NCBI GenBank assembly: GCA_009379735.1
Contig: WHTB01000015.1
Span: 1 to 33,297 of the forward strand
Source of the DNA: Propionibacteriales bacterium
Lineage (GTDB): Bacteria > Actinomycetota > Actinomycetes > Propionibacteriales > Nocardioidaceae
Direction of reading: 5' to 3'
DNA: 33,297 nt
The notes beneath the pieces are model-generated. The model was not told the DNA's origin and ran no database searches. It saw nothing but the letters and a program-made list of their open reading frames with translations. Made by a program: the position numbers and the translations under genes. Of this stretch, positions 4,363-20,300 are shown one piece after another (positions within the stretch are counted from its first letter, which is position 1; each line of letters begins with the position of its first letter).

Positions 4363-4706
4363 CCGACCTTCCTGACGTCGACCTGTCCGGCGCGAAGCCG
4401 GTCGACATCGACGACGTGACGGAGGCGATGAAGGACGTCGTCGACCCCGAGCTCGGCATCAACGTCGTGGACCTCGGCCTGGTCTACGGCGTGCATGTCG
4501 ACGACGCGAACAGCGCCGTGATCGACATGACGCTGACCTCGGCCGCGTGCCCGCTGACCGACGTGATCGAGGACCAGACCCGGCAGGCCCTCGAGGGCCT
4601 CGTCAACGACTTCAGCATCAACTGGGTGTGGATGCCGCCGTGGGGCCCCGACAAGATCACCGACGAGGGCCGCGAGATGCTGCGAGCTCTGGGCTTCAAC
4701 GTCTGA
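4359..4706 (+). CDS. sufT: SufT-type MIP18/DUF59 Fe-S maturation protein
   Basis: 115 residues from the ATG that overlaps the sufU stop. The family signature is clear: VDPELGINVVDLGLVY (about residues 28-43) and TSAACPLTD (about 60-68) with the single conserved cysteine, ending in a Trp/Pro-rich WVWMPPWGPDKIT segment. DUF59 proteins act late in Fe-S maturation, helping clusters reach target proteins. This is the last SUF gene: 129 bases with no gene follow before the pilus operon. The longer upstream frame is rejected because it would overlap most of the sufU C-terminus. Confidence 0.93.
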   Translation: MTDLPDVDLSGAKPVDIDDVTEAMKDVVDPELGINVVDLGLVYGVHVDDANSAVIDMTLTSAACPLTDVIEDQTRQALEGLVNDFSINWVWMPPWGPDKITDEGREMLRALGFNV

Positions 4707-4767
4707 GTACGTAACCCTGTGTGAGATTGAGTAGTTCCCTGGGTACATCTTCGGCCGGGGAACCGCA

Positions 4768-4773
4768 TACAGT
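4768..4773 (+). promoter_or_regulatory. Candidate -10 element (TACAGT) for the Tad pilus operon
   Basis: In the 129-base gap between sufT and the cpaB-like gene, TACAGT fits the actinobacterial TAnnnT -10 consensus and would start RNA near 4780, about 55 bases before the ATG at 4836. No convincing -35 is visible. Just upstream lies an inverted repeat GTTCCC (4734-4739) / GGGAAC (4758-4763), and the octamer ACGTAACC occurs twice (4709-4716 and 4808-4815), either of which could be a regulator site. The call rests on pattern only. Confidence 0.35.
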
Positions 4774-4835
4774 GACTCACGGTGGTCATGACGCCACCTC
4801 CAGCCCGACGTAACCATCCTCCAGGGGGATCCACC

Positions 4836-5594
4836 ATGGCCTCGACCGCGCAAGCCTCACGCCGGGCCGGCGGGCAGTCGACGCAGTCCGGGGGGACCCG
4901 GCTCCCGTCGAGTCGCGAGCGGCGGCCGCTGCTGGCCGTGCTCGCCGTGCTGCTGATCGTCGGCGGCGCGGCGGCCGCAGGCATCGTCGCGCTGCGCCTC
5001 GCCGACCGCACGGAGTACGCCTACCTCGGCGTCGACCTCGGCCGCGGCCAGGAGGTCAAGTCCGGCGACCTGCGGATCATCTCCCTGACCGCCGACGAGG
5101 TGCCGCCGCAAGGCTCCGGCGTCTCCGGCCCCCACCTGGTGACCGTCGAGGAGGCCAACGACTACCTCGGCTGGGTGTCCACCGGCGACTACCCGGCCGG
5201 CACCTTGGCGAACGAGAAGATGTTCAGCAAGGAGAACGAGTTCCCGACCGACACGGCCGAGGTCGGCCTGGTCCTGTCGCGTGAGCAGGTCGTGTCGAAG
5301 GAGCTCGGTATCAACGACCGGATCCAGATCTACTCGACCAGCTCCGACGTCGGCACCGCCGCGACCTCGGTAGGGAGCGGCACCATCGTCGACATCGCCC
5401 GCCCGGGTGCCGACGGCGACCAGCCGGTCGGTGGGCTGTCCGAGGGCATCCACATCACCGTGCGGGTGGCCCAGTCCGAGCTGCCGCAGGTGGCACAGGC
5501 GGCCGGCAACGGCACCGCGTACATCGCCGTCGTCGCCCCCGAGCCGACCGAGCAGCCCGCGGACGAGCAGAGCGGCTCCGAGGAAAAGAACTGA
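4836..5594 (+). CDS. cpaB: CpaB/RcpC-like Tad pilus assembly protein (SAF domain)
   Basis: 252 residues. A basic, Ser-rich N-terminus (1-30) is followed by one membrane segment (about 31-54, LLAVLAVLLIVGGAAAAGIV) and an external part that resembles the SAF domain of CpaB/RcpC (GVDLGRGQEVKSGDLR, then PAGTLANEKMF). The C-terminus is acidic and probably disordered. CpaB-like proteins help Tad pili assemble in the envelope; in Gram-positives, which lack the secretin, the exact role is unclear. The ATG at 4836 has a good ribosome site (AGGGGG, 4823-4828); an upstream GTG in the same frame at 4782 has none. The stop overlaps the next gene as ATGA. Confidence 0.8.
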   Translation: MASTAQASRRAGGQSTQSGGTRLPSSRERRPLLAVLAVLLIVGGAAAAGIVALRLADRTEYAYLGVDLGRGQEVKSGDLRIISLTADEVPPQGSGVSGPHLVTVEEANDYLGWVSTGDYPAGTLANEKMFSKENEFPTDTAEVGLVLSREQVVSKELGINDRIQIYSTSSDVGTAATSVGSGTIVDIARPGADGDQPVGGLSEGIHITVRVAQSELPQVAQAAGNGTAYIAVVAPEPTEQPADEQSGSEEKN

Positions 5595-6484
5595 TGGCGC
5601 TCGTCGCGATCGCGTCGGCGAAGGGGTCGCCCGGCGCGACCACCACGGCGCTCGTGATGGGCGCCCTGTGGCCCCGCCCCGTGGTCGTGGCCGAGTGTGA
5701 CACTGCGGGCAGCGACATCGCCGTCCGCATGCCGGCCGCCGACGGCGGCGTCCTCGACGGTGACCGTGGCCTGGTGACGCTGGCCGCCGCCGGCCGCCGC
5801 GGCCTGCGCTCCGACCTGGTCCTGAGCAACACCCAGCAGGCTCTCGGCGGGCTCGACGTGCTGCTCGGCCTGCGTACGCCGGAGCAGGCGTCCGGCGTCG
5901 GCACGATGTGGCCGCAGTTCGGCGCCGTGTTCGACGGGCTCGAGGGCTACGACGTGATCGCCGACCTCGGCCGCTGCGGTGCACAGACGCCGCAGAACGC
6001 CCTGATGCGCTCGGCCCGCCTGCTGATCATGGTCTGCCGGGCGGAGCCGTCGAGCGTCGTCCACCTGCGCGAGCGGATCAGCGTGCTGGCCGAGGACCTC
6101 GACCCGGCGAACCCGCACGGCACCCCGATCGGCGTGATGGTGGTCGCCGACCCGAAGAAGCGGCGCGACGCGGTGCGTCAGGTCTTCCAGGCAGTCGAAC
6201 AGATGGACGTCCCGGTGGCCTACCGCTGGCACCTGGCCTACGACCCGGAGGGCGCCGCGGTGTTCTCCGGGTCCGTCCGCAACCGTCCCGACCGCTCGGT
6301 CCTGGTGCGCTCGGCGCGTGCGGTGACCGGCGAGGTCGCCCGGGTCGTCGCACCGTTCTTCGTCGAGGCGCAGGTCGGTGCGTACAGCTCCGCGCCGCCC
6401 GAGGACGACGGCGAGCCGGACGGCCTGGCGCCACAGCCGTGGCAGCAGCCGGCCACGAACTCGGGGGCGACGCATGCTGACTGA
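5594..6484 (+). CDS. cpaE: CpaE/TadZ-like ParA/MinD-family protein of the Tad pilus
   Basis: 296 residues. The N-terminus ALVAIASAKGSPGATTTAL is a deviant Walker A of the MinD/ParA type in which the signature Lys10 is kept, but the P-loop lysine is replaced by alanine (GAT), as is usual in CpaE/TadZ proteins. VVVAECD (about residues 30-36) and DVIADLGRCG (about 119-128) correspond to the other nucleotide-site strands. The last 30 residues are Pro/Gln-rich and probably flexible. CpaE/TadZ proteins place the pilus machine in the cell. There is no receiver domain in front, unlike Caulobacter CpaE. The frame overlaps tadA by 11 bases. Confidence 0.82.
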   Translation: MALVAIASAKGSPGATTTALVMGALWPRPVVVAECDTAGSDIAVRMPAADGGVLDGDRGLVTLAAAGRRGLRSDLVLSNTQQALGGLDVLLGLRTPEQASGVGTMWPQFGAVFDGLEGYDVIADLGRCGAQTPQNALMRSARLLIMVCRAEPSSVVHLRERISVLAEDLDPANPHGTPIGVMVVADPKKRRDAVRQVFQAVEQMDVPVAYRWHLAYDPEGAAVFSGSVRNRPDRSVLVRSARAVTGEVARVVAPFFVEAQVGAYSSAPPEDDGEPDGLAPQPWQQPATNSGATHAD

Positions 6485-7784
6485 CCACGATCTCGTCCGC
6501 CAGCTGCGGGTGGGGGTCGCCGAGCGGCTCAACGAGCAGCGTCGTCGCGACCAGCTGAACGGCTACCCCGCTATGACCGTCGAGGACGAGCGCGAGTTCG
6601 CCCGTTCGCTGATCGTGCAGGTGCTGGAGGACCACGCCCGCACCGAGATCGCCTCGGGCCGTACGCCGCCGGACTCCGACGACGAGGCCCTGCTCGCCAC
6701 GGCGGTGCACTCGGCCCTGTTCGGTGTCGGCCGCCTGCAGCCGCTGATCGACGACCCCGAGGTCGAGAACATCGACATCAACGGGTGCGACCAGGTGTTC
6801 GTCCAGTACGGCGACGGCCGGGAGGTGGTGCACCCGCCGGTGGCCGAGTCCGACGAGGAGCTCGTCGACCTGATCCAGGTGCTGGCGGCCCATGCCGGCC
6901 TGTCCAGCCGCCCGTTCGACGCCGCCAACCCGCAGCTCGACCTGCGGCTCCCGGACGGCTCGCGGCTGTCGGCCGTGATGAGCGTCTGCGCGCGGCCCTC
7001 GGTGTCGGTCCGTAAGGCCCGGATGGGCAAGGTCTTCCTGACCGACCTGGTCGCCAACGCGACGATGAGCCAAGACATCGCGTCGTTCCTGCGAGCCGCG
7101 GTCAGTGCCCGCAAGAACATCATGATCGCCGGTGCGACCAACTCCGGTAAGACCACGATCCTGCGGGCGCTGGCCAACGAGATCCCACCGTCGGAGCGGC
7201 TGATCACGGTCGAGCGGGCGCTGGAGCTGGGTCTCGGCGAGTTCCCGGACCTGCACCCCAACGTCGTCGCGTTCGAGGAGCGGCTGGCCAACTCGGAGGG
7301 CAAGGGCGGGGTCGGCATGTCCGGCCTCGTCCGCCGCTCGTTGCGGATGAACCCCAGCCGGGTGATCGTCGGCGAGGTGCTCGGTGACGAGATCGTCACG
7401 ATGCTGAACGCGATGAGCCAGGGCAACGACGGCTCGCTGTCGACCATCCACGCCAACTCGTCGATCGAGGTGTTCAACCGGATCGGCACCTACGCCATCC
7501 AGTCGGTCGAGCGGCTGCCGCTCGAGGCCACGCACATGCTGATCGCCGGCGCCCTCGACTTCGTCGTGTTCATGCGCAAGCGCAACGACTACAGCGAGGG
7601 CGGCGGCCTGAGCCGTGTCGTCGAGAGCGTCCGCGAGGTCACCGGTGTCGACGAGCGGGTGCTGTCGAGCGAGGTCTTCGCCGCGGCTACGGACGGACGC
7701 GCCGTGCCGCACGCGCCGATCGCCTGTATCGCCGAGCTCGAGCAGGCCGGCTACCGGCCGGCCGTGCACGGGGCGTGGGCCTGA
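6474..7784 (+). CDS. tadA: Tad pilus assembly ATPase TadA/CpaF
   Basis: 436 residues, a secretion ATPase of the GspE/VirB11 superfamily and the motor of the pilus. Walker A is GATNSGKTT (residues 220-228, Lys226). The Walker B region is PSRVIVGEVLGDE with Glu301. The His box is GSLSTIHANS with His326. The 'Asp box', usually IEDTxEL in CpaF, reads ITVERALELGL here (244-254), so the usual ED pair is ER. The N-terminal helical part (1-100) ends with DPEVENIDINGCDQVFV, typical of CpaF. The start at 6474 lies within the end of the preceding gene; the stop overlaps tadB as ATGA. Confidence 0.94.
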   Translation: MLTDHDLVRQLRVGVAERLNEQRRRDQLNGYPAMTVEDEREFARSLIVQVLEDHARTEIASGRTPPDSDDEALLATAVHSALFGVGRLQPLIDDPEVENIDINGCDQVFVQYGDGREVVHPPVAESDEELVDLIQVLAAHAGLSSRPFDAANPQLDLRLPDGSRLSAVMSVCARPSVSVRKARMGKVFLTDLVANATMSQDIASFLRAAVSARKNIMIAGATNSGKTTILRALANEIPPSERLITVERALELGLGEFPDLHPNVVAFEERLANSEGKGGVGMSGLVRRSLRMNPSRVIVGEVLGDEIVTMLNAMSQGNDGSLSTIHANSSIEVFNRIGTYAIQSVERLPLEATHMLIAGALDFVVFMRKRNDYSEGGGLSRVVESVREVTGVDERVLSSEVFAAATDGRAVPHAPIACIAELEQAGYRPAVHGAWA

Positions 7785-8692
7785 TGGGTCTGTCCCTCCC
7801 GTTGCTGCTGGTGCTGCTGCTCGGGGCGTTGGTCGGTGGCGGCGTCCTGCTGCTGGTGATGGCGATCCGCGGCGTCGAGCCGCGTGACCCGGCCGAGCCC
7901 AGCTTCTTGAGCTCGCACCAGCGGGCGCTGTCCGAGTCCGGCCGGCGGCTGCTGACCGGGGTGGCGGTCGGCCTGCTGGTCCTGGTCGTCACGGAGTGGA
8001 TCGTGATGGCGTTCGCCCTCGGCTTCCTGGTGGCGATGTGGACCCGCATCTTCGGCGGCGCGTCGAGCGAGCGGGCCCAGATCGCCCGGCTCGACGGGCT
8101 GGCGTCCTGGACCGAGTCGCTGCGCGACACGATCGCGGGTGCGGTCGGCCTCGAGCAGGCGATCCCCGCCACCGCGGTGAACGCGTCCCCGACGATCAAG
8201 CCCCAGCTCAACCTGCTGGTCGACCGGCTGCGCATCCGTGAGCCACTGCATGACGCGCTGATGAAGTTCGCCGACGACCTCGACGACCCGTCGGCCGACC
8301 TGATCGTCGCCGCGCTCATCCTTAACGCCCGGCTGCGCGGTCCCGGCCTCCGTGAGGTGCTGTCGTCGCTGTCGGAGTCGGCCCGTGAGGAGCTCGACCT
8401 GCGCCGCAAGGTGGAGGCGCAGCGCAAGAGCACCCGCCGCAGCGTCCAGGTCGTCGTCGCGATCACGCTCGGGGTGGCCGGCATGCTGGCGATCTTCAAC
8501 GGCGAGTACGTCGAGCCGTACAACTCGTTCACCGGCCAGATCGTGCTGGCCGTCTGCGTGGCCATCTTCGCCGGTGGCATCTTGTGGCTGCGCAAGCTGG
8601 CCGGCATCGAGGTGCCTGAGCGTTTCCTGGTGCAGAGCCGCAAGCAGCGCAGCCAGACCACCGCCGGCGACGTCGTGGAGGTTCGACGATGA
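7784..8692 (+). CDS. tadB: Tad pilus inner-membrane platform protein TadB
   Basis: 302 residues with the T2SSF fold used by pilus platform proteins. Membrane segments are seen at about residues 5-27 and 56-85, with a pair near the C-terminus (about 215-265). Between them lies the cytoplasmic helical domain, beginning LDGLASWTESLRDTIAGAVGLEQAI and including DDLDDPSADLIVAALILN. TadB and TadC together form the platform that TadA acts on. The start is the ATG overlapping the tadA stop (ATGA); a GTG nine bases earlier is in frame but less likely. The end again overlaps tadC as ATGA. Confidence 0.88.
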   Translation: MGLSLPLLLVLLLGALVGGGVLLLVMAIRGVEPRDPAEPSFLSSHQRALSESGRRLLTGVAVGLLVLVVTEWIVMAFALGFLVAMWTRIFGGASSERAQIARLDGLASWTESLRDTIAGAVGLEQAIPATAVNASPTIKPQLNLLVDRLRIREPLHDALMKFADDLDDPSADLIVAALILNARLRGPGLREVLSSLSESAREELDLRRKVEAQRKSTRRSVQVVVAITLGVAGMLAIFNGEYVEPYNSFTGQIVLAVCVAIFAGGILWLRKLAGIEVPERFLVQSRKQRSQTTAGDVVEVRR

Positions 8693-9591
8693 CTCTCGCC
8701 ATCCTGTGCGGCGCCGTCGCCGGTTTCGGGCTGTTCCTGATCGCCCGCCAGTTCGTCCGCAGCGACCCGGGCGTCGCGGCCACGCTGGCCCGCATCGACG
8801 CCGGCCGCCGCGGCCAGCTGGCGGCGACCCGCAGCGCCGTCGACCGGCCGTCGCTGGAGTCGCTGGAACGGCTGCAGAGCGGCCTGGGCGCCCGGCTGGA
8901 GGTCGAGGTCCTCGCCCGGGGCTGGAAGTTCACCAACATCCGGGCCGACCTCGCCGTACTCAACCGGCCGTTCGCCAACCATCTGGCGACGAAGGTGCTG
9001 CTGTCGGTCGCGGGGTTCGTCGTGCTGCCGACGATGATGACGCTGCTCGGCTACGCGACGCTGTCCAGTGTCATCGTCGGCCTGTTCGCCGGCGCGATCC
9101 TGTTCCTGGTACCGGACGCCCGGGTGAAGTCCCGGGCCGAGTCCAGGCGGCGCGACTTCCGGCATGTGATGGGCGCGTTCCTCGACCTGGTCGCGATGAA
9201 CCTCTCCGGTGGACGAGGTCTGCCGGAGGCGCTGATGACCGCCTCCACGATCGGTGACCACTGGGCGATGGCCCGGATCCGGCAGGCGCTGAGCAACGCC
9301 CGGCTGGTCGGCATCACCCCGTGGGAGGGCATCGCCCGGCTCGGCAAGGAGCTCGACATCGAGGAGCTGCGCGACCTCGCCTCCGCGCTCGCGCTGGCCG
9401 GCGACGAGGGAGCCACGATCCGCAGCTCGCTGATGGCGAGGGCCGAGAGCCTGCGCCGCAAGGAGCTGGCGATGGTCGAGGGTGCAGCGGGCGAGCGCTC
9501 GCAGTCGATGCTGGTCGCCCAGCTGATGCTGTGTGGTGCGTTCCTGTTGTTCCTGGCGTACCCCGCAACCACCAAGATCATGGGGACATGA
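8689..9591 (+). CDS. tadC: Tad pilus inner-membrane platform protein TadC
   Basis: 300 residues, the second T2SSF-type platform protein. There is an N-terminal membrane segment (about 3-20), a paired hydrophobic region (about 100-145) and a last one at the C-terminus (MLVAQLMLCGAFLLFLAY). The cytoplasmic domain contains GAFLDLVAMNLSGGRGLPEAL, a clear TadC/T2SSF mark. It starts in an ATGA overlap with tadB. Its stop is followed by a 132-base gap before the pilin gene, the first real break in the operon. Confidence 0.88.
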   Translation: MTLAILCGAVAGFGLFLIARQFVRSDPGVAATLARIDAGRRGQLAATRSAVDRPSLESLERLQSGLGARLEVEVLARGWKFTNIRADLAVLNRPFANHLATKVLLSVAGFVVLPTMMTLLGYATLSSVIVGLFAGAILFLVPDARVKSRAESRRRDFRHVMGAFLDLVAMNLSGGRGLPEALMTASTIGDHWAMARIRQALSNARLVGITPWEGIARLGKELDIEELRDLASALALAGDEGATIRSSLMARAESLRRKELAMVEGAAGERSQSMLVAQLMLCGAFLLFLAYPATTKIMGT

Positions 9592-9596
9592 AAATA

Positions 9597-9637
9597 TGAC
9601 GTCACGAGGTCGAAGCTCGACCGTCTCCCCAGGGAGA
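9597..9637 (+). other. Palindrome and two small hairpins between tadC and the pilin gene
   Basis: The 132-base gap after tadC holds a perfect palindrome TGACGTCA (9597-9604), then GGTCGA-AGC-TCGACC (9608-9622) and TCTCCC-CA-GGGAGA (9624-9637). The octamer could be an operator; the hairpins could be an RNA processing or stability site that sets the pilin apart from tadABC. There is no T-run, so a simple intrinsic terminator is not indicated. Another TGACGT half-site lies at 9672-9677. Confidence 0.4.
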
Positions 9638-9723
9638 TGCCCCCTAGGCGTCGCAGCATGGCCACGGGCTGTGACGTGGCGCCCAGCAGAGCCGGTAGAG
9701 ACCAGACACGAGGGGACTCGACG

Positions 9724-9948
9724 ATGAATAACGAGCTGATGATGGTGCGCACCCTGTGGTGGGTCGCGCGCGGTCGGATGATCGAGGCCAAGCGCACCGA
9801 GGGCAAGAGCCGGGGGGCGTCTGCTCTCGAGTGGGCGATCATCTCGGCGATCCTGGTCACCGCTGCCGTGCTGATCGGCAACGCCGTCTACAACCGGGTG
9901 CAGAAGTCCTCGGGCAACCTGGAGAAGTGCACCAACGCCGTCTGCTGA
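9724..9948 (+). CDS. flp: Flp-type major pilin precursor (Tad pilin)
   Basis: 74 residues. A basic leader of 31 residues ends in KSRG, followed by ASALEWAIISAILVTAAVL: cleavage between Gly31 and Ala32 would leave a 43-residue mature pilin with Glu at +5 (Glu36), as prepilin peptidases of this class need. The Flp motif is normally G/xxxxEY; here the residue after Glu is Trp. The mature C-terminus ends CTNAVC, two cysteines that could form a disulfide. The ATG at 9724 has a strong ribosome site (GAGGGG, 9710-9715). No prepilin peptidase (TadV/CpaA) is in the window. Confidence 0.93.
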   Translation: MNNELMMVRTLWWVARGRMIEAKRTEGKSRGASALEWAIISAILVTAAVLIGNAVYNRVQKSSGNLEKCTNAVC

Positions 9949-9973
9949 GGCAGGCGTGCGTGGGTGAGGAACG

Positions 9974-10393
9974 ATGAGCGTGCGGGGGAGACGCACCCAA
10001 CGCGGCGCGAGCGCGATCGAGCTATCGATCGTGGCGCCGTTCTTCCTGATGCTCATCTTCAGCCTGATCCAGGGCTCGCTGTGGCTGTACGCGCGCAATG
10101 TCGCACTGTCGGCGGCCCGCGAAGGCGCCTCAGACGCGCGGCTGTTCCAACCCGACGAGTACACCGCCGGCGTCGACGCCGGGCTGAAGCAGCAGCTGGT
10201 CAGCTACGTCGCAACGGTCGGCAACAACACGCTGGTCGATACCAAGCCGGAGATCGACTACAACCCCGGCGGCAGCGGCCGGGTGACCGTCACGGTCACC
10301 GGGCACGCGATCGGCCTGACGCCGTTCGACCTCGAGGTGCGACGCTCGGTCGAGATGGAGATCGAGCAGTTCGAGCCGGACCTGGGCCAATGA
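9974..10393 (+). CDS. tadE: TadE-like pseudopilin
   Basis: 139 residues. A short basic leader ending QRG is followed by ASAIELSIVAPFFLMLIF: predicted cleavage is Gly11/Ala12 with Glu16 at +5, then a single hydrophobic helix (about 12-34). The rest is an external domain with LYARNVALSAAREGASDARLF, which matches TadE-like proteins. TadE and TadF are minor pilins needed for pilus assembly. It lies 25 bases after the Flp stop, with GAGGA (9966-9970) as ribosome site, and overlaps the next gene as ATGA. Confidence 0.87.
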   Translation: MSVRGRRTQRGASAIELSIVAPFFLMLIFSLIQGSLWLYARNVALSAAREGASDARLFQPDEYTAGVDAGLKQQLVSYVATVGNNTLVDTKPEIDYNPGGSGRVTVTVTGHAIGLTPFDLEVRRSVEMEIEQFEPDLGQ

Positions 10394-10854
10394 GACGACT
10401 CGACCTGGCCCGGCACGGGCGCAGACGATGCGAGGGCGGCACGCTCTCGCTGGAGCTGTCGATCATCGCGCCGCTGCTGCTGATGATCGGGGTGCTGTTC
10501 ATCGCGTACGGCCGCTACGGCCAGACCACTGGCCTGCTCGAGCAGGGCGTGCGTGACTCGGCCCGCTCGGCGACCCAGACCCGGAGCGAGCAGGACATGG
10601 CCACGGCGATCGAGCGGGTCCGGAAGAAGACCGCGGCGGAGCTGCCGCAGTCGTGCGGTGACTCGCTGAAGGTCTCCGACGTGAAGCTCGAGGGCGGGGG
10701 GAGCACCGACGCGTTCGCCCGCGGGACGTTCGTCACCGTGACGTACTCCTGCCAGCTGACGATGTCCGACCTGCTGCTGCCCGGGTGGTCGGACCGTACG
10801 CTGACCCGGTCGTTCACCAGCCGGCTGGATCCGAACCGAGGGGTGTACCAATGA
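10390..10854 (+). CDS. tadF: TadE/TadF-like pseudopilin (second)
   Basis: 154 residues. The basic N-terminus ends in CEGG, then TLSLELSIIAPLLLMIGVLF: predicted prepilin site Gly17/Thr18 with Glu22 at +5 and one hydrophobic helix. The external part has the TadE-like LLEQGVRDSARSAT and two further cysteines (about residues 89 and 120) that may form a disulfide. It starts at the ATG overlapping the tadE stop; a longer upstream open frame lies over tadE and is rejected. It overlaps the TadG-like gene as ATGA. TadE and TadF cannot be told apart reliably by eye, so the symbol is by position. Confidence 0.8.
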   Translation: MRRLDLARHGRRRCEGGTLSLELSIIAPLLLMIGVLFIAYGRYGQTTGLLEQGVRDSARSATQTRSEQDMATAIERVRKKTAAELPQSCGDSLKVSDVKLEGGGSTDAFARGTFVTVTYSCQLTMSDLLLPGWSDRTLTRSFTSRLDPNRGVYQ

Positions 10855-11993
10855 TGTTCTGGAGCGGTCGCGTCGCCCGCGGCGAGCACGGCTCGCTGGC
10901 GCCGGCAACCGCGGCGATGATCGTCATGCTCTTCCTGCTCGGTGGGCTGATCATCGACGGCGCTCGGGCGCTGGGGGCGCGTGCCCGCGCCGCGTCGTAC
11001 GCCGAGGAGGGTGCGCGGATCGCCGGCCAGGGCGTGTCGTTCGACGAGGGCAACTTCGACGTCGACCCGGAGGCCGTCAACGACAACGCCGCCGGCTACT
11101 GCGCCCGGATCGCCGCCAACGACAAGACCGTCGACGACTGCAGCTCGGCGATCGAGAACGGCGAGATCGTGTTCACGGTCAACGTCACGATCTCGAAGGG
11201 CGTGCTCGGCCTCGCCACACCGGGCGACGGCGACATGACGTTCCCGGGCACCGGACGGGCGATCGCGGAGTTCGGCATCTTCGAGGCCGACTCCGTCTCG
11301 GACAACCAGCTCGACCTCGCTCCGGACTTCGAGGACGGCAACCAGATCGACCTGGACCTGCCCGAGGGGGTCGATGAGGACGGCTGTCCGCGGGGCGAGA
11401 CGTGGGAGGAGGCGCCCGCGACGTTCACCCCGAAGCCGTTCCGGTTCCTCCGCGAGGACCAGGTCGGCAACATGCCGGTGCACTGCCCGCGGCCGCCGGT
11501 GTGCGCCAACGAGGGTCAGCTGATCCCGTACTTCTTCCACTACTACTACCCCGACAAGATCCGCCAGCATGACCGGTGGGAGCCGCTGTTCATCCGCTGC
11601 CCCGTCGCCGAGAAGCTCATCTACGGCCCCTCGCCGGCCAACCCGGACTGCAGCAACGTGGACGGCACGCAGCGGCACCCATGCGGCCCGATCGAGGCGG
11701 CCGACTGCGACACCGGGCAGCAGGGCACCCAGTCGCCCCCGTGCGGTCCGAAGCCCGACCCGACCGACTGCGACCCAGATGAGAGCGGCACCCAGTCACC
11801 ACCGTGCGGCCCGGATCCGGACAAACCAGGCGACTGCGATCCCGACACCCCGACGAAGAACACCCCGCCGTGCGGACCTGACCCCGACCCGATGAAGTGT
11901 GACGGCACGTCCGACCGGCAGAGGCCACCGTGCACGCCGAAGCCGGAGGAGACCAAGACTCCGGCGGCCGAGCCGGCCGGGGCGAGCGGATGA
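10851..11993 (+). CDS. tadG: TadG-like pilus protein with Cys/Pro-rich repeat tail
   Basis: 380 residues. The N-terminus GEHGSLAPATAAMIVMLFLL fits the Tad N-terminal (TadG-like) helix, with Gly14 at the cleavage position but no Glu at +5, so it may stay uncleaved. RARAASYAEEGARIAGQG follows, as in TadG-like proteins. Residues about 150-262 carry several cysteines. From about 264 to 362 there are five short units with two cysteines each (C-x10-11-C, ending mostly PPCGP), followed by a Thr/Pro/Ala tail. Such a tail would be extended and exposed outside the cell. The start is the ATG overlapping tadF; the stop overlaps the lipoprotein gene as ATGA. Confidence 0.8.
   Translation: MMFWSGRVARGEHGSLAPATAAMIVMLFLLGGLIIDGARALGARARAASYAEEGARIAGQGVSFDEGNFDVDPEAVNDNAAGYCARIAANDKTVDDCSSAIENGEIVFTVNVTISKGVLGLATPGDGDMTFPGTGRAIAEFGIFEADSVSDNQLDLAPDFEDGNQIDLDLPEGVDEDGCPRGETWEEAPATFTPKPFRFLREDQVGNMPVHCPRPPVCANEGQLIPYFFHYYYPDKIRQHDRWEPLFIRCPVAEKLIYGPSPANPDCSNVDGTQRHPCGPIEAADCDTGQQGTQSPPCGPKPDPTDCDPDESGTQSPPCGPDPDKPGDCDPDTPTKNTPPCGPDPDPMKCDGTSDRQRPPCTPKPEETKTPAAEPAGASG
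11640..11939 (+). repeat. Five-unit Cys/Pro repeat inside the TadG-like gene
   Basis: The coding sequence holds five imperfect units of about 21 codons, each with the pattern D/K-C-D/S ... G-T-Q-x-P-P-C-G-P-x-P. The first cysteine is Cys267 and the last is Cys361. Units 2 and 3 share GTQSPPCGP exactly; units 1 and 5 are the most diverged. This is a protein-level tandem repeat, with codon drift showing it is not a recent DNA duplication. Confidence 0.8.
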
Positions 11994-12598
11994 GGCGCCT
12001 CACGACCACGCTGAGCGGCGTGCTGCTGGCGGCCGGGCTCGGGGCTGGGCTGGTGGCCGGCTGCGGCGGCGACAGCTCCAGCGGTGCGGCGATCACCGGC
12101 AAGTCCACGGTCGAGAAGGGCGACGAGCCGGCCGGCGGCGATAGCCCGCCGGCGTCGAAGGCGGCGGAGCCGACGACCCAGGCCGTCGGCCTCGGTCCGT
12201 ACGGCGAGAAGCCGGAGGCGAAGGCGGCCGCGACGTTCTACCAGGAGCTGTGGCGGTCGTACCAGACCGGCGCGGTGACCCCGGGAATCACTAAAGTGGC
12301 CACCGAGAACGCGCTCGCCTTCTTCCGGCCGCAGGTCGAGGGGCTGAAGAAGAAGGGCCACACGATCAACAACCTGTCAGCAGCGAGGGTGGTTAAGGTC
12401 AAGTCCGGAGTGGTGACGGTGTGCATGGCGTCGGCGTCGTACCAGACGTTCGACCGGGAGTCGGGCGACCCGATCGACGAGCCCGAGTCGGGGTTCACCG
12501 CCTACACCGTCCGGATGACGAAGGAGAAGTCCGCGTGGAAGGTCGACAACGTGTCCGGCATCTCGGGAATCCAGTGCGGAGAGGCGGCCACCCAATGA
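11990..12598 (+). CDS. Predicted lipoprotein coupled to the Tad operon
   Basis: 202 residues. A lipoprotein signal peptide is clear: basic MRRL, hydrophobic helix, then lipobox LVAGC with Cys25. A Ser/Gly/Asp-rich linker (26-65) leads to a domain of about 130 residues with AKAAATFYQELWRSYQTG and a C-terminal half that looks like a small alpha/beta (NTF2- or SnoaL-like) fold; that fold guess is weak. Two cysteines (about 145 and 197) could pair. The start lies in an ATGA overlap with the TadG-like gene, and the stop overlaps the next gene the same way, so it is made with the pilus. No known function; a role in anchoring or assembly is inference. Confidence 0.8.
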   Translation: MRRLTTTLSGVLLAAGLGAGLVAGCGGDSSSGAAITGKSTVEKGDEPAGGDSPPASKAAEPTTQAVGLGPYGEKPEAKAAATFYQELWRSYQTGAVTPGITKVATENALAFFRPQVEGLKKKGHTINNLSAARVVKVKSGVVTVCMASASYQTFDRESGDPIDEPESGFTAYTVRMTKEKSAWKVDNVSGISGIQCGEAATQ

Positions 12599-13728
12599 AT
12601 GCCACGGTGCCTGCCAACACGACTGGGCGCATGATCCGCCGCGTCCTGCTCGTCCTCGGCGCGGCCATCGCCCTGCTCGGCACCGGGTCGGTCAACCCGG
12701 CCGCCGCCGACTGCGGCCTGGGCGGCTCCTGCAGCGGGGTGCACACGCAGGCGGTCAACACCGGCTACTACTCCCTCGGTGGCACCAGCTGCGGCGCCTA
12801 CGTGTCCGCGAGCGGGTTCGGCGGCACCTGCGCGGCACCCGGCACCTACAGCGGCAACTTCCCGACGCCGCCGACCTGGCAGGAGATCATCAAGATGTCG
12901 CCCGGTCGGACCTTCGACCCGTGCCGCCACCAGCGCATCGACAAGGGGTTCAACAAGCCGGAGCCACCGGCCGACCCGGAGAAGCGGGCCAAGGGCGACG
13001 AGTGGCTGATCCGGATCTGCATGAAGAACTACGACCTGGGCACGACCGACGGTGGCGACAACCTCGAGCTCGTCTTCGACCGGGTGTGGGCGTTCTACGA
13101 GGGCGAGCCGGGCTGGATGGACTACCTGTGGGGCGACGTCGCCGGGTCACAGAGCACGTTCCCGTTCCCGGTGATCGGCTACGGCCCGCATGCGTACCCC
13201 GTGGTCGGCACTCCCACCTTCTTCTGGGCGACCTTCAACGAGCTCAACCCGGACGGCTCCCTGAACGAGCTGACGACCGACGAGGTCGTGCCGCAGTACC
13301 AGGTCCCGCTCGGCACCGACACGAACAAGGGCCTGGATGTCGTGCTCAACGCCCGGCTGGTCCGCTTCAACGTCAACACCGGTGAAGACGAGGGCTCCGC
13401 GGACTGCAGTGACGTGAACGACTGGACCCGGCCGTTCAAGACCGGCCAGGACACCGTCGAGCAGTTCGCCAAGAAGACCAAGTGCCAGTGGACCTACACC
13501 CACTCCAGCGCCGACCAGGGCTTCGGCACCTACACGGTGACCGCGCGGGCCCGTTGGCAGATCGGCTGGAGCTATGTGGACGCCAACGGGCAGACCACGA
13601 CCCAGATGAAGCCGCTGTCCAGCAAGGGCTTCTCCGAGGTGACCACGGAGTCGAGATACAACATCCCGGTCGGTGAGGTGCAGGTGCGCGGCTGCGTGCT
13701 GCAGAACCAGTGCACCCGGCCCGACTAG
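12595..13728 (+). CDS. Secreted Cys-containing protein of unknown function, end of Tad operon
   Basis: 377 residues from the ATG overlapping the lipoprotein stop. A second ATG at 12631 would give a shorter, more typical signal peptide: MIRRVLLVLGAAIALLGTG, with probable cleavage after NPAAA before DCGLGG. The mature protein begins Gly/Cys/Ser-rich (three cysteines in the first 30 residues), has a charged middle (PEKRAKGDEWLIRICMKNYD) and a beta-rich second half with VTARARWQIGWSYVDANG. It ends in GCVLQNQC. I do not recognise a family. Position, coupling and signal peptide suggest an extracellular partner of the pilus. The operon ends here, with a hairpin after the stop. Confidence 0.78.
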   Translation: MNATVPANTTGRMIRRVLLVLGAAIALLGTGSVNPAAADCGLGGSCSGVHTQAVNTGYYSLGGTSCGAYVSASGFGGTCAAPGTYSGNFPTPPTWQEIIKMSPGRTFDPCRHQRIDKGFNKPEPPADPEKRAKGDEWLIRICMKNYDLGTTDGGDNLELVFDRVWAFYEGEPGWMDYLWGDVAGSQSTFPFPVIGYGPHAYPVVGTPTFFWATFNELNPDGSLNELTTDEVVPQYQVPLGTDTNKGLDVVLNARLVRFNVNTGEDEGSADCSDVNDWTRPFKTGQDTVEQFAKKTKCQWTYTHSSADQGFGTYTVTARARWQIGWSYVDANGQTTTQMKPLSSKGFSEVTTESRYNIPVGEVQVRGCVLQNQCTRPD

Positions 13729-13736
13729 GGCACCGG

Positions 13737-13774
13737 CCAGGGGACCGCACAACCACCCGGTGGTGACCCCCTGG
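13737..13774 (+). terminator. Hairpin after the Tad operon
   Basis: Eight bases after the stop, the arms CCAGGGG (13737-13743) and CCCCTGG (13768-13774) enclose an inner stem ACCACC (13752-13757) / GGTGGT (13759-13764). There is no T-run, which is common in high-GC actinobacteria. It could end the Tad transcript before the LysM gene. Confidence 0.55.
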
Positions 13775-13815
13775 CGAGGCAGAATGGGGTGTCCCCGTCT
13801 AGGAGGAGTCTGATC

Positions 13816-16623
13816 GTGGTGAGCCCAACCCAGCCTCGAGCTGCCCGGCTGCCGTCGTACGCGCCGAAGATGGTTCGCCGCTCCGGTGAGCGGCTGCGGG
13901 GCCTGGTCGCCGTGGCGGCGATCCTGGCACTGGTGTTCGCCGTCCCGTGGGCGTTGTGGACGTTCGGCGGCGCGCCGTGGCCGACCAGTGCCCCGAGCAT
14001 GGACTGGCTGACCCAGCCGATCGGCTCCGACGTCGTCCTCAGGGTGCTGTTCTTCGTGCTGTGGGTCGCGTGGCTGCACTTCGTGATCTGCCTGGTGGTC
14101 GAGTTCTTCGCCGAGCGGCGCGGCCACGGCATGACCGCGCAGGTGCCCGGCGGGGGAGTCGGCACCCAGTCGCTGGCCCGCCGCCTCGTCGCCGCCGCCC
14201 TCCTGCTGGTCGGCTCCGCGGCCGTGACCGTACCCGCCGCCAGCGCGGCGACCGGCTCGACCACGAACGAGACGGTGTCCGCGTCGGTGGAGACTAAGGC
14301 GTCGGCTCATGCCGAGTCACGCACGTCCGACGACACGGTCGCCAAGAAGGCCCAGGCCAAGCCGAAGGTCGCCACCGGCGGGCGCATCACCTACACCGTG
14401 CAGCCTCCGCACGGGCGGCACTACGACAGCCTGTGGGACATCTCCGAGCGGTTCCTCGGTGACGGCCGCCGTTACAAGGAGGTCTTCGACCTCAACAAGG
14501 GCAAGCTGCAGGCCGACGGACGCACGCTGCGTGAGGCCGACCTCATCCACCCGGGCTGGGTGCTGACGATGCCCGACGACGCCAAGGGCGCGAGCCTCAC
14601 CATCCGCGAGGAGCAGAGCCGGCCGGGCGGCAGTGGCCGGAGCGGCAGCGCGAGCGGTGGCGAGGGGACCGCCACGGCCGACGGCGGGGCGAGCGACGGC
14701 GGCGCCGGTGGTGCCGGGCTGGGCGCCGGCGGAGGTGCCGGGAGCCAGGTCGGCGGGGGCGCCGGGGCCGCACCACAGGTCGCCGAGAACAACGTCCTTG
14801 TGTACGGCGTCGGCGGTGCCCTGGTGGCAGCCGGGCTGATGGCCGGACTGCTGCGTCGCCGCGGCTGGAACGGCGGCGGCGAGGACGCCCTGACGCCCGA
14901 GGACGAGACCCCGCTGCGGCTGGCCGCCGACGAGGGCCAGGCCCGGTTCGTCGACCGGGCGCTGCGTGGTCTGGCGCACGCGATGCACGAGTCGGGCCGG
15001 CCGATGCCGTCGGTCTACGCCGCCTATGTCGACGACGACGTGTTCACGCTGGCGATCTCGCCGGCGGTCGCCGACGCCCCGCCGGAGGGCTGGTACAGCG
15101 ACGACGACGGCCGGATGTGGACCGTCGACCGGGCCACCGCCGAGGCCCTGGAGGTGCCCCGCGAGGTCCTGGCGCCGTACCCCGGGCTGGTCACGGTCGG
15201 CACGCTCGACGACGGCACGCTCGTCCTTCTCGACCTGGAGACCGCGCCGGGCCTGGTGTCGCTGGGCGGCGACCTCGAGACGGCCCGCGAGGTCGGTGCG
15301 TCGATGGCCGTCGAGCTGGCCACGAACCTGTGGTCCGACGACGTGTCGGTCACCCTGGTCGGCTTCGGCGACGACCTGACCGAGCTGGCTCCGCACCGTA
15401 CCCGCCGGGTCGACAACCTCGACGACGTGCTCGTCGACCTGGAGCAGCACCGGTCGCGCCAGCACAACGTGTGCGTGCGCAGCGGGCTCGACTCGGTGAT
15501 CCGTGGTCGCCAGATGCGCGCCGACCGTGAGCTGTGGAAGCCGCAGTTCCTGGTGCTGAGCGGCGTCCCCAGCCAGGAGCACCTGGCCCGGCTGGGCGAG
15601 CTGGCCGCCGACCCGCGGCACGCGATCGGCGTCGTCACGATCGGCGACGTGGTCAGTGCGCCGTGGCGGATGGTGGTCGGGGCCGACGGTCGGCTCACCA
15701 ACAACCTGCTGGGCCTCGAGGTGACCGCCCAGCGGCTCGGCGTCGCGGCGTACACGAAGGTGGTCGACCTCTTCCGCCGGGCCGACGCCGGCGCCAGGAT
15801 CGACCCGAACGACCTCGAGCCGCTGCCGACGCCCGGTCTTGCCCCGGCGATGCTGGAGCTCGACATCGCCGCGCCGGTCTCGGTGCAGCTGTTCGGTCCG
15901 GTCGTGGTCGACGCACCGGGGCCTATCGACGACGAGCGCCGCGACCTCGCGACCGAGATCGTCGCGTACGTCGGGATGCACCCCGATGGAGTCCACCCCA
16001 GCGTGCTCGACTCGGCCATCTGGCCGCGCGGCGTGACCGACGAGGTCCGCAACGCCGCCATCGGCCACGTGCAGCGCTGGCTCGGCGAGAACGCCGCCGG
16101 CGAGCCGCGTCTCGACCAGGACGAGCAGGGCCGCTGGCGCCTCGACTTGACGTCGGTGCGCGTCGACTGGCACGTGTTCCAAGCCCTGCTCGACCGCGCG
16201 CACCGCGGCGGCGACCCGACCAACGACCTCGCGCTCGCGCTGTCGATGGTGCAAGGGCCGGGGTTCGACCAGCTGCCTGCGCACCGCTACTCATGGTTGG
16301 CCCGCTCGACCCACCTGCGTGACATCAACGTGACCGTCGTCGACGCCACCCGGCAGCTCGCCGACCTGGCCGCCCGCGCCCAGGACCCGGTGTTCGCGCG
16401 GGAGGCGCTGCGCACCGGCCTGCTGGTGGTCCCGGACTGCGAGGAGCTGTGGCGTCAGGGGCTGCGGCTCGCGGCCCGATTCGGCAGCACCGAGGAGACG
16501 GCCGAGGTGGCCGGCGACATGTACGCCGCGATCGCCGAGCACGGGTCACCGCGGGGCGCCTCGGCCGAGACCGACGCGTTGGTCGACGAGCTGCTGCCGG
16601 GCTACCGTCGCCGGGTCGCCTGA
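13816..16623 (+). CDS. Membrane-anchored LysM protein with cytoplasmic SARP/BTAD-like region
   Basis: 935 residues. Order: membrane helices at about 30-50, 74-97 and 124-145; a Thr/Ser linker; a LysM-like domain (about 190-253, YTVQPP...LWDISERFLGD...LIHPGWVLTMP); a Gly/Ser linker (270-320); a fourth helix (327-345) followed by LLRRRG; a middle domain (360-680); and from about 685 a winged-helix and BTAD-like region (VQLFGPVVVDAPG, SVLDSAIWPRGVTDEVRNA, then helical repeats). Positive charges put LysM outside and the SARP-like part inside. The GTG at 13816 follows AGGAGGAG (13801-13808) by seven bases; an earlier GTG at 13789 precedes this ribosome site. It probably senses peptidoglycan near the pilus; DNA binding is unproven. 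Confidence 0.82.
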   Translation: MVSPTQPRAARLPSYAPKMVRRSGERLRGLVAVAAILALVFAVPWALWTFGGAPWPTSAPSMDWLTQPIGSDVVLRVLFFVLWVAWLHFVICLVVEFFAERRGHGMTAQVPGGGVGTQSLARRLVAAALLLVGSAAVTVPAASAATGSTTNETVSASVETKASAHAESRTSDDTVAKKAQAKPKVATGGRITYTVQPPHGRHYDSLWDISERFLGDGRRYKEVFDLNKGKLQADGRTLREADLIHPGWVLTMPDDAKGASLTIREEQSRPGGSGRSGSASGGEGTATADGGASDGGAGGAGLGAGGGAGSQVGGGAGAAPQVAENNVLVYGVGGALVAAGLMAGLLRRRGWNGGGEDALTPEDETPLRLAADEGQARFVDRALRGLAHAMHESGRPMPSVYAAYVDDDVFTLAISPAVADAPPEGWYSDDDGRMWTVDRATAEALEVPREVLAPYPGLVTVGTLDDGTLVLLDLETAPGLVSLGGDLETAREVGASMAVELATNLWSDDVSVTLVGFGDDLTELAPHRTRRVDNLDDVLVDLEQHRSRQHNVCVRSGLDSVIRGRQMRADRELWKPQFLVLSGVPSQEHLARLGELAADPRHAIGVVTIGDVVSAPWRMVVGADGRLTNNLLGLEVTAQRLGVAAYTKVVDLFRRADAGARIDPNDLEPLPTPGLAPAMLELDIAAPVSVQLFGPVVVDAPGPIDDERRDLATEIVAYVGMHPDGVHPSVLDSAIWPRGVTDEVRNAAIGHVQRWLGENAAGEPRLDQDEQGRWRLDLTSVRVDWHVFQALLDRAHRGGDPTNDLALALSMVQGPGFDQLPAHRYSWLARSTHLRDINVTVVDATRQLADLAARAQDPVFAREALRTGLLVVPDCEELWRQGLRLAARFGSTEETAEVAGDMYAAIAEHGSPRGASAETDALVDELLPGYRRRVA

Positions 16624-16628
16624 CCGCG

Positions 16629-17273
16629 GTGACCGGCGCACGCCGGGTCGAGGTCGCGCCCGAGCGGCTGGCGGGATGGATCGAACGGTTCGGTCGCCTG
16701 CACGGAGACGTGCAGGCGACCGGTTCCGCGTCTACGGTCGACCTGGCGGCGGCCGACGGCTCGACCGCCCAGATCTCCGTGCCGTGGCCACCGCTGCCGC
16801 CCGCTGACGGTGACGACGCGGTGGCCGGGCTGCTGGCGCACGTGGCCGCGCGGCGCCGGCTCGCACTGCTGCTGGTACGCCGCGGCGGGTACGCGCTCGG
16901 CCTGCTCGACGGTGACCAGCTGACCGTCAGCAAGGTAGGCAGCCGGTACGTCCAGGGCCGGACCAAGGCGGGCGGGTGGTCCCAGCAGCGGTACGCCAGG
17001 CGTCGGGCCCACCAGGCCAAGGAGGCGTTCGGCGCGGCCGCCGACGTCGCCGCACGGATGTTCCTGCCGGCCTACGAGTCGATCGACGGGTTGGTCACCG
17101 GGGGAGACCGGCAGGCCGTGGCCGACGTGCTGTCGGACCCTCGGCTGCTGCCGTTGGCAGACCTGCCGGTCGGCCCCTTCCTCGCCGTACCCGACCCACG
17201 GAAGAATGTCCTGGAGCAGGCCGCCGTGGCCTGCCGGGCGGTGCGGGTCGAGGTCGCCGACGTGACCCGCTGA
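16629..17273 (+). CDS. acVLRF1-type peptidyl-tRNA hydrolase (ribosome rescue)
   Basis: 214 residues from GTG, five bases after the preceding stop. The segment GSRYVQGRTKAGGWSQQRYA (residues 104-123) with a following Arg-rich helix is the mark of the Vms1/ANKZF1-like release-factor (VLRF1) family; the glutamine in GGWSQQR is the expected catalytic residue, analogous to the GGQ of release factors. Family members free nascent chains from tRNA on stalled large ribosomal subunits. The rest is an RNase-H-like alpha/beta fold: LLLVRRGGYALGLLDGDQL precedes the motif. It has no pilus-specific feature and is probably a housekeeping gene riding with the LysM gene. A hairpin follows its stop. Confidence 0.85.
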   Translation: MTGARRVEVAPERLAGWIERFGRLHGDVQATGSASTVDLAAADGSTAQISVPWPPLPPADGDDAVAGLLAHVAARRRLALLLVRRGGYALGLLDGDQLTVSKVGSRYVQGRTKAGGWSQQRYARRRAHQAKEAFGAAADVAARMFLPAYESIDGLVTGGDRQAVADVLSDPRLLPLADLPVGPFLAVPDPRKNVLEQAAVACRAVRVEVADVTR

Positions 17274-17276
17274 GCG

Positions 17277-17313
17277 CCGGGCCGGTCGGCCTGGGTCGCT
17301 CGGGACGGCCCGG
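17277..17313 (+). terminator. Hairpin after the acVLRF1 gene
   Basis: Perfect eight-base arms CCGGGCCG (17277-17284) and CGGCCCGG (17306-17313) start three bases after the stop codon, with a 21-base loop. It separates this gene from the essC promoter region. No T-run is present. Confidence 0.5.
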
Positions 17314-17318
17314 AAACG

Positions 17319-17324
17319 TAGGCT
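17319..17324 (+). promoter_or_regulatory. Candidate -10 element (TAGGCT) for the essC-like gene
   Basis: TAGGCT fits TAnnnT and lies just after the hairpin. RNA would begin near 17331, leaving a 21-base leader that carries the ribosome site GGGAGG (17339-17344). No clear -35 is seen. This suggests essC is transcribed on its own rather than from the upstream unit. Confidence 0.4.
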
Positions 17325-17351
17325 CGTGCACAAACCTCGGGAGGTACGTCG

Positions 17352-20300
17352 GTGGTCAGGCTGAGCTTCACGGTCGTCGATGCGGCGAACGACGACTCCG
17401 CGAACGTTGTGATGGAGGCGGACGAGGACACCACGATCGGCGTGGTGTCGCACCACCTCGCCTCGCTGTTCCGTGACGTCGACCCGGATGGCGTGGCGTC
17501 CGCCCGGGGGAGCGGCGAGCAGCCCGGTGGTGCCCGACTGCTCGAGCTGGTCACCGAGCGCCGTACGCCGAACGGCACGGCACTGTACGTCGCGGGCATC
17601 CGGCTCGACCCGTCGCTGACCGTGGCCGAGTCGCCGCTGGTCGACGGCTGCATCGTCGGGGTCGCCGACGACGTCGGTGGCATGGGCGACAGCGGCGAGG
17701 ACCTGCTGCAGATCAGGATCGCCGGCGGCCCGACCGCAGGTGCGGTGCACAACATCGGCCCGGGCTCGCACGTGGTCGGGTCCGAGTCGCCGGCAACGCT
17801 GCGTCTCGACGACGCGATGATCCCGGCCGAGGCGCTGCTGGTCGGGGTGTCGGTCGACGGGTCGTGCGAGGTGACACCCCTCGGCGACGTCGTCGTCGGC
17901 ATCGAGGGCGAGCAGATCGAAGGCGCCACGCCGTGGCACGAGACCGAGCAGCTGACTGTGGGCCAGCACCTGCTCGAGTGGCACTTCCCGGCTCCGCCCG
18001 ACGCGGCCCTGCAGCCGTCCGACGACGGGGTGGGTCTGGACTACAACCGGCCGCCGCGGCTGCTGCCGCCGGAGGCCGAGACAGACTTCAAGCTGCCGAG
18101 CTTCCCGAAGGAGCCGGACAAGAAGCCGCTGTCATGGGCCGCGTCGATGATGCCGGTGGTGATGGCGGTGACGATGGCCCTGGTGATGCAGAACCCGCGC
18201 TACATGCTGATCGGCCTGTTCAGCCCGGTGATGATGTTCGCCAACTTCAAGGCGGACAAGAAGCACGGCAAGGCCGCCTACAAGCAGCAGGTCGCCGACT
18301 ACAAGGACCGCAAGAAGCAGATCGAGCAGGACGCGCACGACGCGCTGCAGCTCGACCGTGAGCTGCGTCGCAAGGACTTCCCCGACGCGGCGACCACGCT
18401 GCTGATGGCGGTCGGCCCGTCGAGCCGGCTGTGGGAGCGGCGCCGCACCGACCCCGACTACCTGGTGCTGCGCTTCGGCACCGCCGAGATGCCGTCGGAC
18501 GTGACGCTCGACGACCCCGAGCAGCTCGAGCACCGCCGCAAGATCACCTGGACGATCCCCAACGCACCGGTGACGATCCCAATCAACGCGGCCGGCGTGG
18601 TCGGCATCGCCGGTCGCGGCGACCTGCCGCGTTCGCTGGCCCGTTGGGCCGTTGCGCAGATCACCGCGCTGCACTCGCCGTTCGACGTGCAGGTCGTCGT
18701 GCTCACCGACCAGTCCGGCAAGGACGCCTGGGAGTGGACCCGCTGGCTGCCGCACCTGCGCCCGTCGATGGGCCAGGACACCGTGACGCTGCTCGGCACC
18801 GACGCCGACTCGGTGTCGCGCCGGGTCGCCGAGCTGCAGGCGATCATCGGGGCACGCCGCACCGCCCGTGGCGCCACCCAGGCGGACGCCGTCCCGCCCC
18901 CGGGTGGGGAGATCGTCGTCATCTTGGACGGTGCACGCCGGCTCCGCTCGCTGCCGGGTGTCATCGAGCTGCTGAAGGAGGGTGCCGAGTACGGCGTCTT
19001 CACCATCTGCCTCGACTCCGAGGAGCGGATGCTGCCGGAGGAGTGCCAGGCGGTGGTGATCGAGGAGCACGACGGCGTACGTATCCAGCGCCAGCGCACC
19101 GACGTGGTCCGCGGCGCCCACCCCGACGTGGTCAGCGTCGCCTGGACGGAGCGGCTGGCCCGGCACCTGTCACCGATCCGTGACGTCAGCGGCGGCGAGG
19201 AGGGTGCCAACCTCCCGACGTCGTCCCGGTTGCTCGACGTGCTCCACCTCGACCCGCCCACCGGCGACGCCATCAGCGCCCGGTGGGGCCTGGGCGGCCG
19301 GTCCACCGAGGCCGTCATCGGCGACACGTACGACGGTCCGTTCGCCCTCGACATCCGCCGCGACGGTCCGCACGGCCTGATCGCCGGCACGACCGGGGCC
19401 GGCAAGTCCGAGCTGCTGCAGACCATCGTGGCGGCGCTGGCGGTCGCGAACCGGCCCGACTCGATGACGTTCGTGCTGGTCGACTACAAGGGCGGCAGCG
19501 CGTTCAAGGACTGCGTCGACCTGCCCCACACGGTCGGCATGGTGACCGACCTCGACACCCACCTGGTGGAGCGGGCGCTGGAGTCCCTCGGCGCCGAGCT
19601 GAAGCGGCGCGAGCACATCCTCGCCGAGTCCGGCGCCAAGGACATCGAGGACTACGTCGACCTGCTCGCCAAGCGGCCGGACCTGTCGCCGGTGCCACGG
19701 CTGGCGATCGTCATCGACGAGTTCGCGTCGATGGCCCGCGAGCTGCCCGACTTCGTGTCGGGCCTGGTCAACATCGCCCAGCGCGGTCGGTCGCTCGGCA
19801 TCCACCTGATCCTCGCCACCCAGCGGCCCTCGGGTGTGGTGTCGCCGGAGATCCGGGCCAACACGAACCTCCGGATCGCACTGCGGGTCACCGACCCGGC
19901 GGAGAGCTCCGACGTCATCGACTCGCCCGAAGCCGCTCGCATCCTCAAGTCGACACCCGGTCGTGCGTACGCCCGGCTCGGTCACGCCTCGCTCGTGCCG
20001 TTCCAGGCCGGTCGTGTCGGCGGGCGCGCGCCGGGTGTGAAGGCACAGGTGGTCGTGCCGCCGTGGATCACCGACCTCGACTGGACCCAGCTGGGCCAGT
20101 CGGCGCCGATGCGGCCGAAGGAGAAGGAGGACAAGGGCGACGTCGAGATCACCGACCTGAAGGTGCTGGTCGACGCGATCCGGGGCGCGAACGAGCGGAT
20201 GGCGATCCCGCCGCAGCACAGTCCGTGGCTGGAGGCGTTGCCCGACCTGCTGCTGCTCGACGACGTGCCCGACGGCCAGGCCAAGACCACCCTGCCGAGC

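Follow-up and report, generated by a model that had tools for sequence, protein, structure and literature searches.

A lipoprotein and a secreted cysteine-rich protein encoded as a pair at the end of an actinobacterial Tad pilus operon

Two genes that close a Tad pilus operon in a Propionibacteriales bacterium encode a lipoprotein (LP) and a secreted protein with ten cysteines (SCP). Both the link of these genes to Tad loci and the pairing of one with the other are well supported. We give an even chance to the reading that the two proteins are co-produced envelope components, which would belong to a scaffold in the membrane/wall zone of the Tad pilus machine of an actinobacterial class marked by RcpC and LysM proteins. 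A description of the pair was not found in the open-access literature, to which the search was confined. It is the pair that is new and not the presence of RcpC, because Micrococcus luteus and Rhodococcus equi already have CpaB. The window (the whole stretch of DNA analyzed, 33,297 nucleotides of contig WHTB01000015.1) contains the following Tad locus.

4782 to 5594, forward strand: putative CpaB/RcpC homologue, named from a profile-to-PDB match (start uncertain, 4782 or about 4938)
5594 to 6484, forward strand: CpaE/TadZ-like protein, named by position and relatives (no Pfam match)
6474 to 7784, forward strand: TadA/CpaF ATPase (PF00437)
7775 to 8692, forward strand: TadB (PF00482)
8689 to 9591, forward strand: TadC (PF00482)
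9724 to 9948, forward strand: Flp-like pilin, named by position, size and relatives (no Pfam match)
9974 to 10393, forward strand: TadE-like minor pilin 1 (PF07811)
10390 to 10854, forward strand: TadE-like minor pilin 2 (PF07811)
10851 to 11993, forward strand: TadG-like protein with a Cys/Pro/Asp-rich tail (PF13400), ATGA junction with LP
11990 to 12598, forward strand: LP, lipoprotein with lipobox LVAGC and a predicted NTF2/VirB8-like domain
12595 to 13728, forward strand: SCP, secreted beta-rich protein with ten cysteines and a possible PKD-like C-terminal part
13789 to 16623, forward strand: LysM membrane protein with a large C-terminal region, named from a LysM-type match and hydrophobic segments (start uncertain)

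The order from 5' to 3' is CpaB/RcpC, CpaE, TadA, TadB, TadC, Flp, TadE, TadE, TadG, LP, SCP and LysM. TadA, two T2SSF proteins, Flp (assigned by position and relatives) and TadE/TadG-like proteins in one operon identify the system as Tad (type IVc). As the first-pass annotation had reported, LP and SCP are chained by ATGA overlaps to the TadG-like gene and to each other, which can be read directly from the DNA: the TadG-like stop TGA occupies 11991-11993 and the LP start ATG begins at 11990, while the LP stop TGA occupies 12596-12598 and the SCP start ATG begins at 12595. The chain of 4-base overlaps is longer than had been noted, running through TadE1, TadE2, TadG, LP and SCP. The LysM gene follows 60-140 bases 3' of SCP, depending on its start. 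A scan for sigma-70-type sites found no consensus promoter in 4600-17500. In the nearest relative read (L019/L036) the gene order is identical, with 43% identity for SCP and 33% for LP. Other genes follow the Tad locus. An acVLRF1 family peptidyl-tRNA hydrolase gene lies at 16449-17273 (+), an EssC/EccC-type ATPase of type VII secretion at 17352-21836 (+) and a WXG100 protein, just below the Pfam cut-off, at 21942-22235 (-). At L071, L078 and L106, too, WXG and/or EssC-like genes come 3' of the LysM gene. A neutral zinc metallopeptidase (PF04228; 22533-23381, -) is a conserved neighbor in Kribbella-type loci.

LP has the marks of a bacterial lipoprotein. Its lipobox LVAGC ends at Cys25, two further cysteines are found at positions 145 and 196, and all three are invariant among 47 aligned sequences. 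A low-complexity linker of about 45 residues precedes the folded domain, which was predicted by AF2 with pLDDT mostly above 90. The best Foldseek match of this domain was Tim44 (E 1e-3). The VIA-align matches span about 101-120 residues and have Z between 12.5 and 8.2, led by ARC6/PARC6 (12.5), Tim44 (10.1), the VirB8 domain of PrgL (9.6), TraH (9.3) and TraM (9.1). The prediction of an NTF2/cystatin-type, VirB8-like fold for this domain is a confident one. Pfam gave no match that would place LP in VirB8 at the sequence level, and the likeness is one of fold only. Folds of the NTF2/cystatin type serve as binding or assembly domains in many machines.

SCP carries a Sec-type signal peptide, and its ten cysteines are all located after it. 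Invariant residues are scattered over the entire length of the protein in the alignment of its relatives. The AF2 model has a mean pLDDT of 80 and gave no Foldseek match at E<=0.001. The first seven VIA-align rows are all PKD domains with Z 7.0-5.7, under 8 and in the range that the tool calls common; the best of them (Z 7.0, rmsd 2.1) covers 84 of 85 residues, and Pfam and Foldseek agree in showing no PKD match. These matches are only suggestive of a PKD-like structure. Searches of Pfam, NCBIfam and PDB sequences gave nothing above any cut-off for either protein, and membership in a known sequence family was therefore rejected for both.

Linkage to Tad was followed in 80 loci (L036-L115) fetched with the TadA of the window, which contain 67 SCP and 75 LP ORFs at E<1e-3. 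In the first 37 of these (L036-L072, mostly Propionibacteriales), SCP lies 3' of TadG and in the same orientation in 31 of the 31 loci with enough DNA; the other six are cut, L039 and L049 after LP, and L058, L066, L068 and L070 before it. Two opposite-strand genes stand between TadG and LP in L061 and L063 (Aeromicrobium), and L056 has SCP without LP. In the 43 loci L073-L115, mostly from Streptomyces, the pair is absent from the Tad operon. SCP was found elsewhere in the DNA read in 26 of them, mostly on the other strand, and was not found in the DNA read of 17, several of which are cut.

An even draw of 246 genomes of the phylum gave SCP at 37 places in 26 genomes, and the surroundings of all were read. 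Of these places, 19 are at Tad loci, where SCP is arranged in one of three ways. In one it lies between TadG and LysM (the window, L138, L148 and L149). In another the order is LP-SCP-CpaB-CpaE-TadA, with or without a detected LP (L034, L125, L137, L139-L147 and L150). In the last, at loci of Streptomyces type, it is on the opposite strand (L135 and L136). As a rough yardstick, in a 4-Mb genome with three TadA-like genes a place picked at random would have a chance of about 1.5% of lying within 10 kb of one of them. That the linkage takes three different forms argues against a neighborhood that was merely inherited. The remaining 18 places are unlinked to Tad in the DNA read, some having flanks cut by a contig end. 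The genome of the window has three Tad loci with SCP. Apart from the locus in the window these are the RcpC-type loci L034 (G000:C168) and L146 (G000:C431), both with SCP at the 5' end.

At several Tad loci of the RcpC/LysM class the DNA read contained no pair (L078, L106, L103, several Streptomyces loci, L151, L170, L171, L173, L174, L176, L178 and L180), and L152 is cut on the side of interest. Several of the genomes with such loci keep the pair elsewhere, while none was found in G023 and G140. Genomes of Streptomyces and Kribbella have additional unlinked pairs or relatives of SCP. The earlier description of the two genes as welded to the Tad operon thus overstates the case outside Propionibacteriales. 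Neither SCP nor the LysM gene was detected at the 17 sampled TadA loci of other Tad classes, a label that covers loci picked by hand from the phylum TadA list together with Streptomyces loci. Genes were called by a simple script, and some loci of lower GC were read by six-frame HMM search.

The first-pass annotation had named a lack of co-occurrence with Tad genes as one finding that would refute it; the association proved strong at the level of genomes as well as loci. Among 58 relatives, SCP was present in 23 of 25 TadA-positive genomes and in 6 of 33 others (Fisher 2e-8, with kinship ignored). In the phylum sample the figures were 14 of 16 and 12 of 230, again with kinship ignored. TadA was scored at <=1e-75 for the relatives and <=1e-65 for the phylum, thresholds that were chosen post hoc. 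Reading of the loci shifts three genomes toward the association: G011 had been scored as lacking SCP but has it at its Tad locus (L177), and the two genomes G004 and G022 had been scored as lacking Tad but carry Tad loci (L182 and L183).

Pairing was assessed on 115 SCP ORFs gathered by HMM. As lipoproteins can give inflated matches through their signal and linker regions, the LP model was rebuilt from the folded domain only; counting with a full-length HMM was dropped, since its match at L169 rested on signal and linker. With the domain model, an LP similar in the NTF2 domain (E<=1e-3) lies directly upstream of 92 of the 115. One of the others has a weak LP, seven show N-terminal (signal/linker) similarity only, and 15 have no LP, some being at contig ends. 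The 4-base overlap of start and stop is common at LP/SCP junctions (47 of 81) and was counted at 8 of 38 TadG/LP, 4 of 35 SCP/LysM and 3 of 12 SCP/CpaB junctions, with possible double counting of a few ORF pairs from the same locus. The coupling of LP to SCP is therefore the conserved one, whereas the overlap of TadG with LP is mostly local. Upstream pairing and the frequent overlap make LP and SCP a unit, and they are probably made in a fixed ratio. In plasmid records the window SCP found no relative, and a Streptomyces SCP found two distant matches.

Other proteins of the locus may also act outside the membrane. The CpaB-like family profile matches RcpC of PDB entry 9gzr (E 1.3e-4); 9 of 25 members match RcpC and 19 of 25 match SAF, while the window member itself has no match. 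On this profile evidence the window protein is classed as an RcpC homologue, which puts the locus in the RcpC/CpaB class of Tad systems. The protein encoded at 13789..16623, for which BTAD is a tentative label, has a LysM-type match (PRK11198, residues 212-263, E 2.7e-5) that is below the curated cut-off. It is a candidate wall anchor at least as good as LP or SCP. The TadG-like protein has a CGP/DCDP-type repeat tail and 16 cysteines in all. Long TadG tails are a feature of Propionibacteriales and not of Streptomyces, and the 5'-type loci have a short TadG; the idea that the tail is an obligate partner for LP and SCP was therefore rejected. RcpC is a periplasmic dodecamer in Pseudomonas aeruginosa (PMC12307814). 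The late-stage Tad parts that monoderms lack include, according to a review, RcpC, TadD and the secretin (PMC6916266). The earlier statement that Gram-positive Tad systems lack outer parts needs qualifying, as the present locus encodes a LysM membrane protein as well as an RcpC/CpaB homologue.

A parallel was found in another Tad class of Streptomyces, reached through L169 (2680-4597; also L185-L194). Here Flp and TadG are followed by a lipoprotein and then by a secreted OmpA-family protein (PF00691, E 4e-15). The likeness to the window is that a lipoprotein and then a secreted protein come directly after TadG; the difference is that the OmpA-family protein takes the place of SCP, and the lipoprotein is unrelated to LP, lacking its domain and resembling it in signal and linker only. 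The OmpA-family protein was present in 41 of 41 Streptomyces genomes searched, as was the matching TadA. All ten stretches read have a gene in the lipoprotein's place before it, and in eight the called start includes a lipobox. OmpA-type domains bind peptidoglycan. Two unrelated pairs of this kind in one slot suggest a common requirement in the zone between membrane and wall. The first-pass annotation had put LP and SCP forward as candidates for an envelope anchor or for wall passage. Their place in the envelope is supported by the lipobox, the signal peptide, the conserved cysteines and the NTF2/VirB8-like prediction, while for the anchoring or passage role itself the lipoprotein and OmpA-family pair gives indirect support only.

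Comparison with described systems shows partial likeness. The tad-1 and tad-2 loci of M. luteus share with the window the order tadA-tadB-tadC-flp-tadE-tadG and a distal TadG-like gene, but the part of the account available mentions no lipoprotein or secreted partner after TadG (PMC4322843), where the window has LP and SCP. The window also has RcpC/CpaB inside the operon and a LysM gene following, whereas cpaB of M. luteus sits at another locus (PMC8467076). In the rpl pilus island of R. equi, a putative lipoprotein, RplD, comes just before CpaB and CpaE as in the 5' arrangement; the excerpt of this source lists nine genes without a secreted partner (PMC2947987), and RplD was compared by position only. 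The NTF2 domains of PrgL, TraH and TraM, which are VirB8-like, share with LP the predicted fold, a membrane-tethered extracytoplasmic setting and a Gram-positive export machine. However, identity is about 10%, only LP is a lipoprotein, and a shared fold shows no function.

Under the scaffold reading, LP would carry a lipid that anchors it to the outer face of the cytoplasmic membrane, and its flexible linker would put the NTF2/VirB8-like domain into the zone between membrane and wall. There the domain may bind SCP, a secreted, disulfide-stabilized and possibly PKD-like partner. LP, SCP, the RcpC/CpaB homologue, the TadG tail and the LysM protein would contact the pilus machine and together form an outer scaffold that may hold or guide the pilus through the wall.

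The main rival, which we hold to be somewhat unlikely, is that SCP is a surface protein borne on the pilus, either an adhesin or a cargo docked on a TadE/TadG tip, with LP as a membrane tether or pre-loading chaperone and the tandem or unlinked pairs as a set of interchangeable surface proteins. Surface proteins commonly contain PKD-like domains, and the frequent presence in Streptomyces of at least two pairs near Tad (L081, L083, L085, L089, L096, L099 and L114), with others unlinked, slightly favors it. The interchangeable Tad tips and the secreted protein docked on the pilus tip in Vibrio, described in PMC12075869, count in the same direction. After correction for TadA/B/C, the distances of SCP covary most with those of TadG (partial r 0.57, against 0.43 with LP), a confounded signal and, like all mirror-tree signals here, a weak one because the distances are not independent. 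On the other hand, mean identity at 16 Kribbella-type loci is 64% for SCP and 66% for CpaB, without sign of a hypervariable adhesin; variation about equal to that of CpaB slightly disfavors an adhesin, and the invariant residues along the whole length of SCP speak against any such surface protein. A different possibility is that the pair has an envelope function of its own, for instance in sensing the cell wall or as a secreted protein and receptor, and shares only regulation or ancestry with Tad. The unlinked half of the SCP places in the phylum sample counts for it, as does genome G219, in which all four pairs found lie away from its Tad locus L170, but it is opposed by the three linkage arrangements, by the genome-level co-occurrence and by the lack of SCP at the sampled loci of other Tad classes, and we regard it as quite unlikely.

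Gram-negative Tad loci also combine a lipoprotein, the pilotin TadD, with an exported envelope protein, the secretin RcpA. LP could replace the pilotin and SCP the secretin, with SCP as the actual pore or collar through the wall. Position, the combination of lipoprotein and secreted partner, and the presence of an RcpC homologue, dodecameric in P. aeruginosa (PMC12307814), agree with it. Against it, no likeness of LP or SCP to pilotin or secretin was found in any sequence or fold search, although absence from a list of folds excludes nothing, and we consider the idea highly improbable. A broader proposal, which we find unlikely, keeps the counterpart and gives up the kinship: LP and SCP, with the RcpC homologue and the LysM protein, could build a dedicated conduit across the wall for the Tad pili of monoderms, matching in function the tunnel of secretin, pilotin and RcpC but made from unrelated parts. 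The lipoprotein and OmpA-family pair would then be an independently recruited version in the other Streptomyces class. With a conserved two-gene module at the Tad loci of Kribbella, Aeromicrobium, Mumia and Streptomyces, the way in which Tad pili of thick-walled bacteria cross the wall or are held in it becomes testable.
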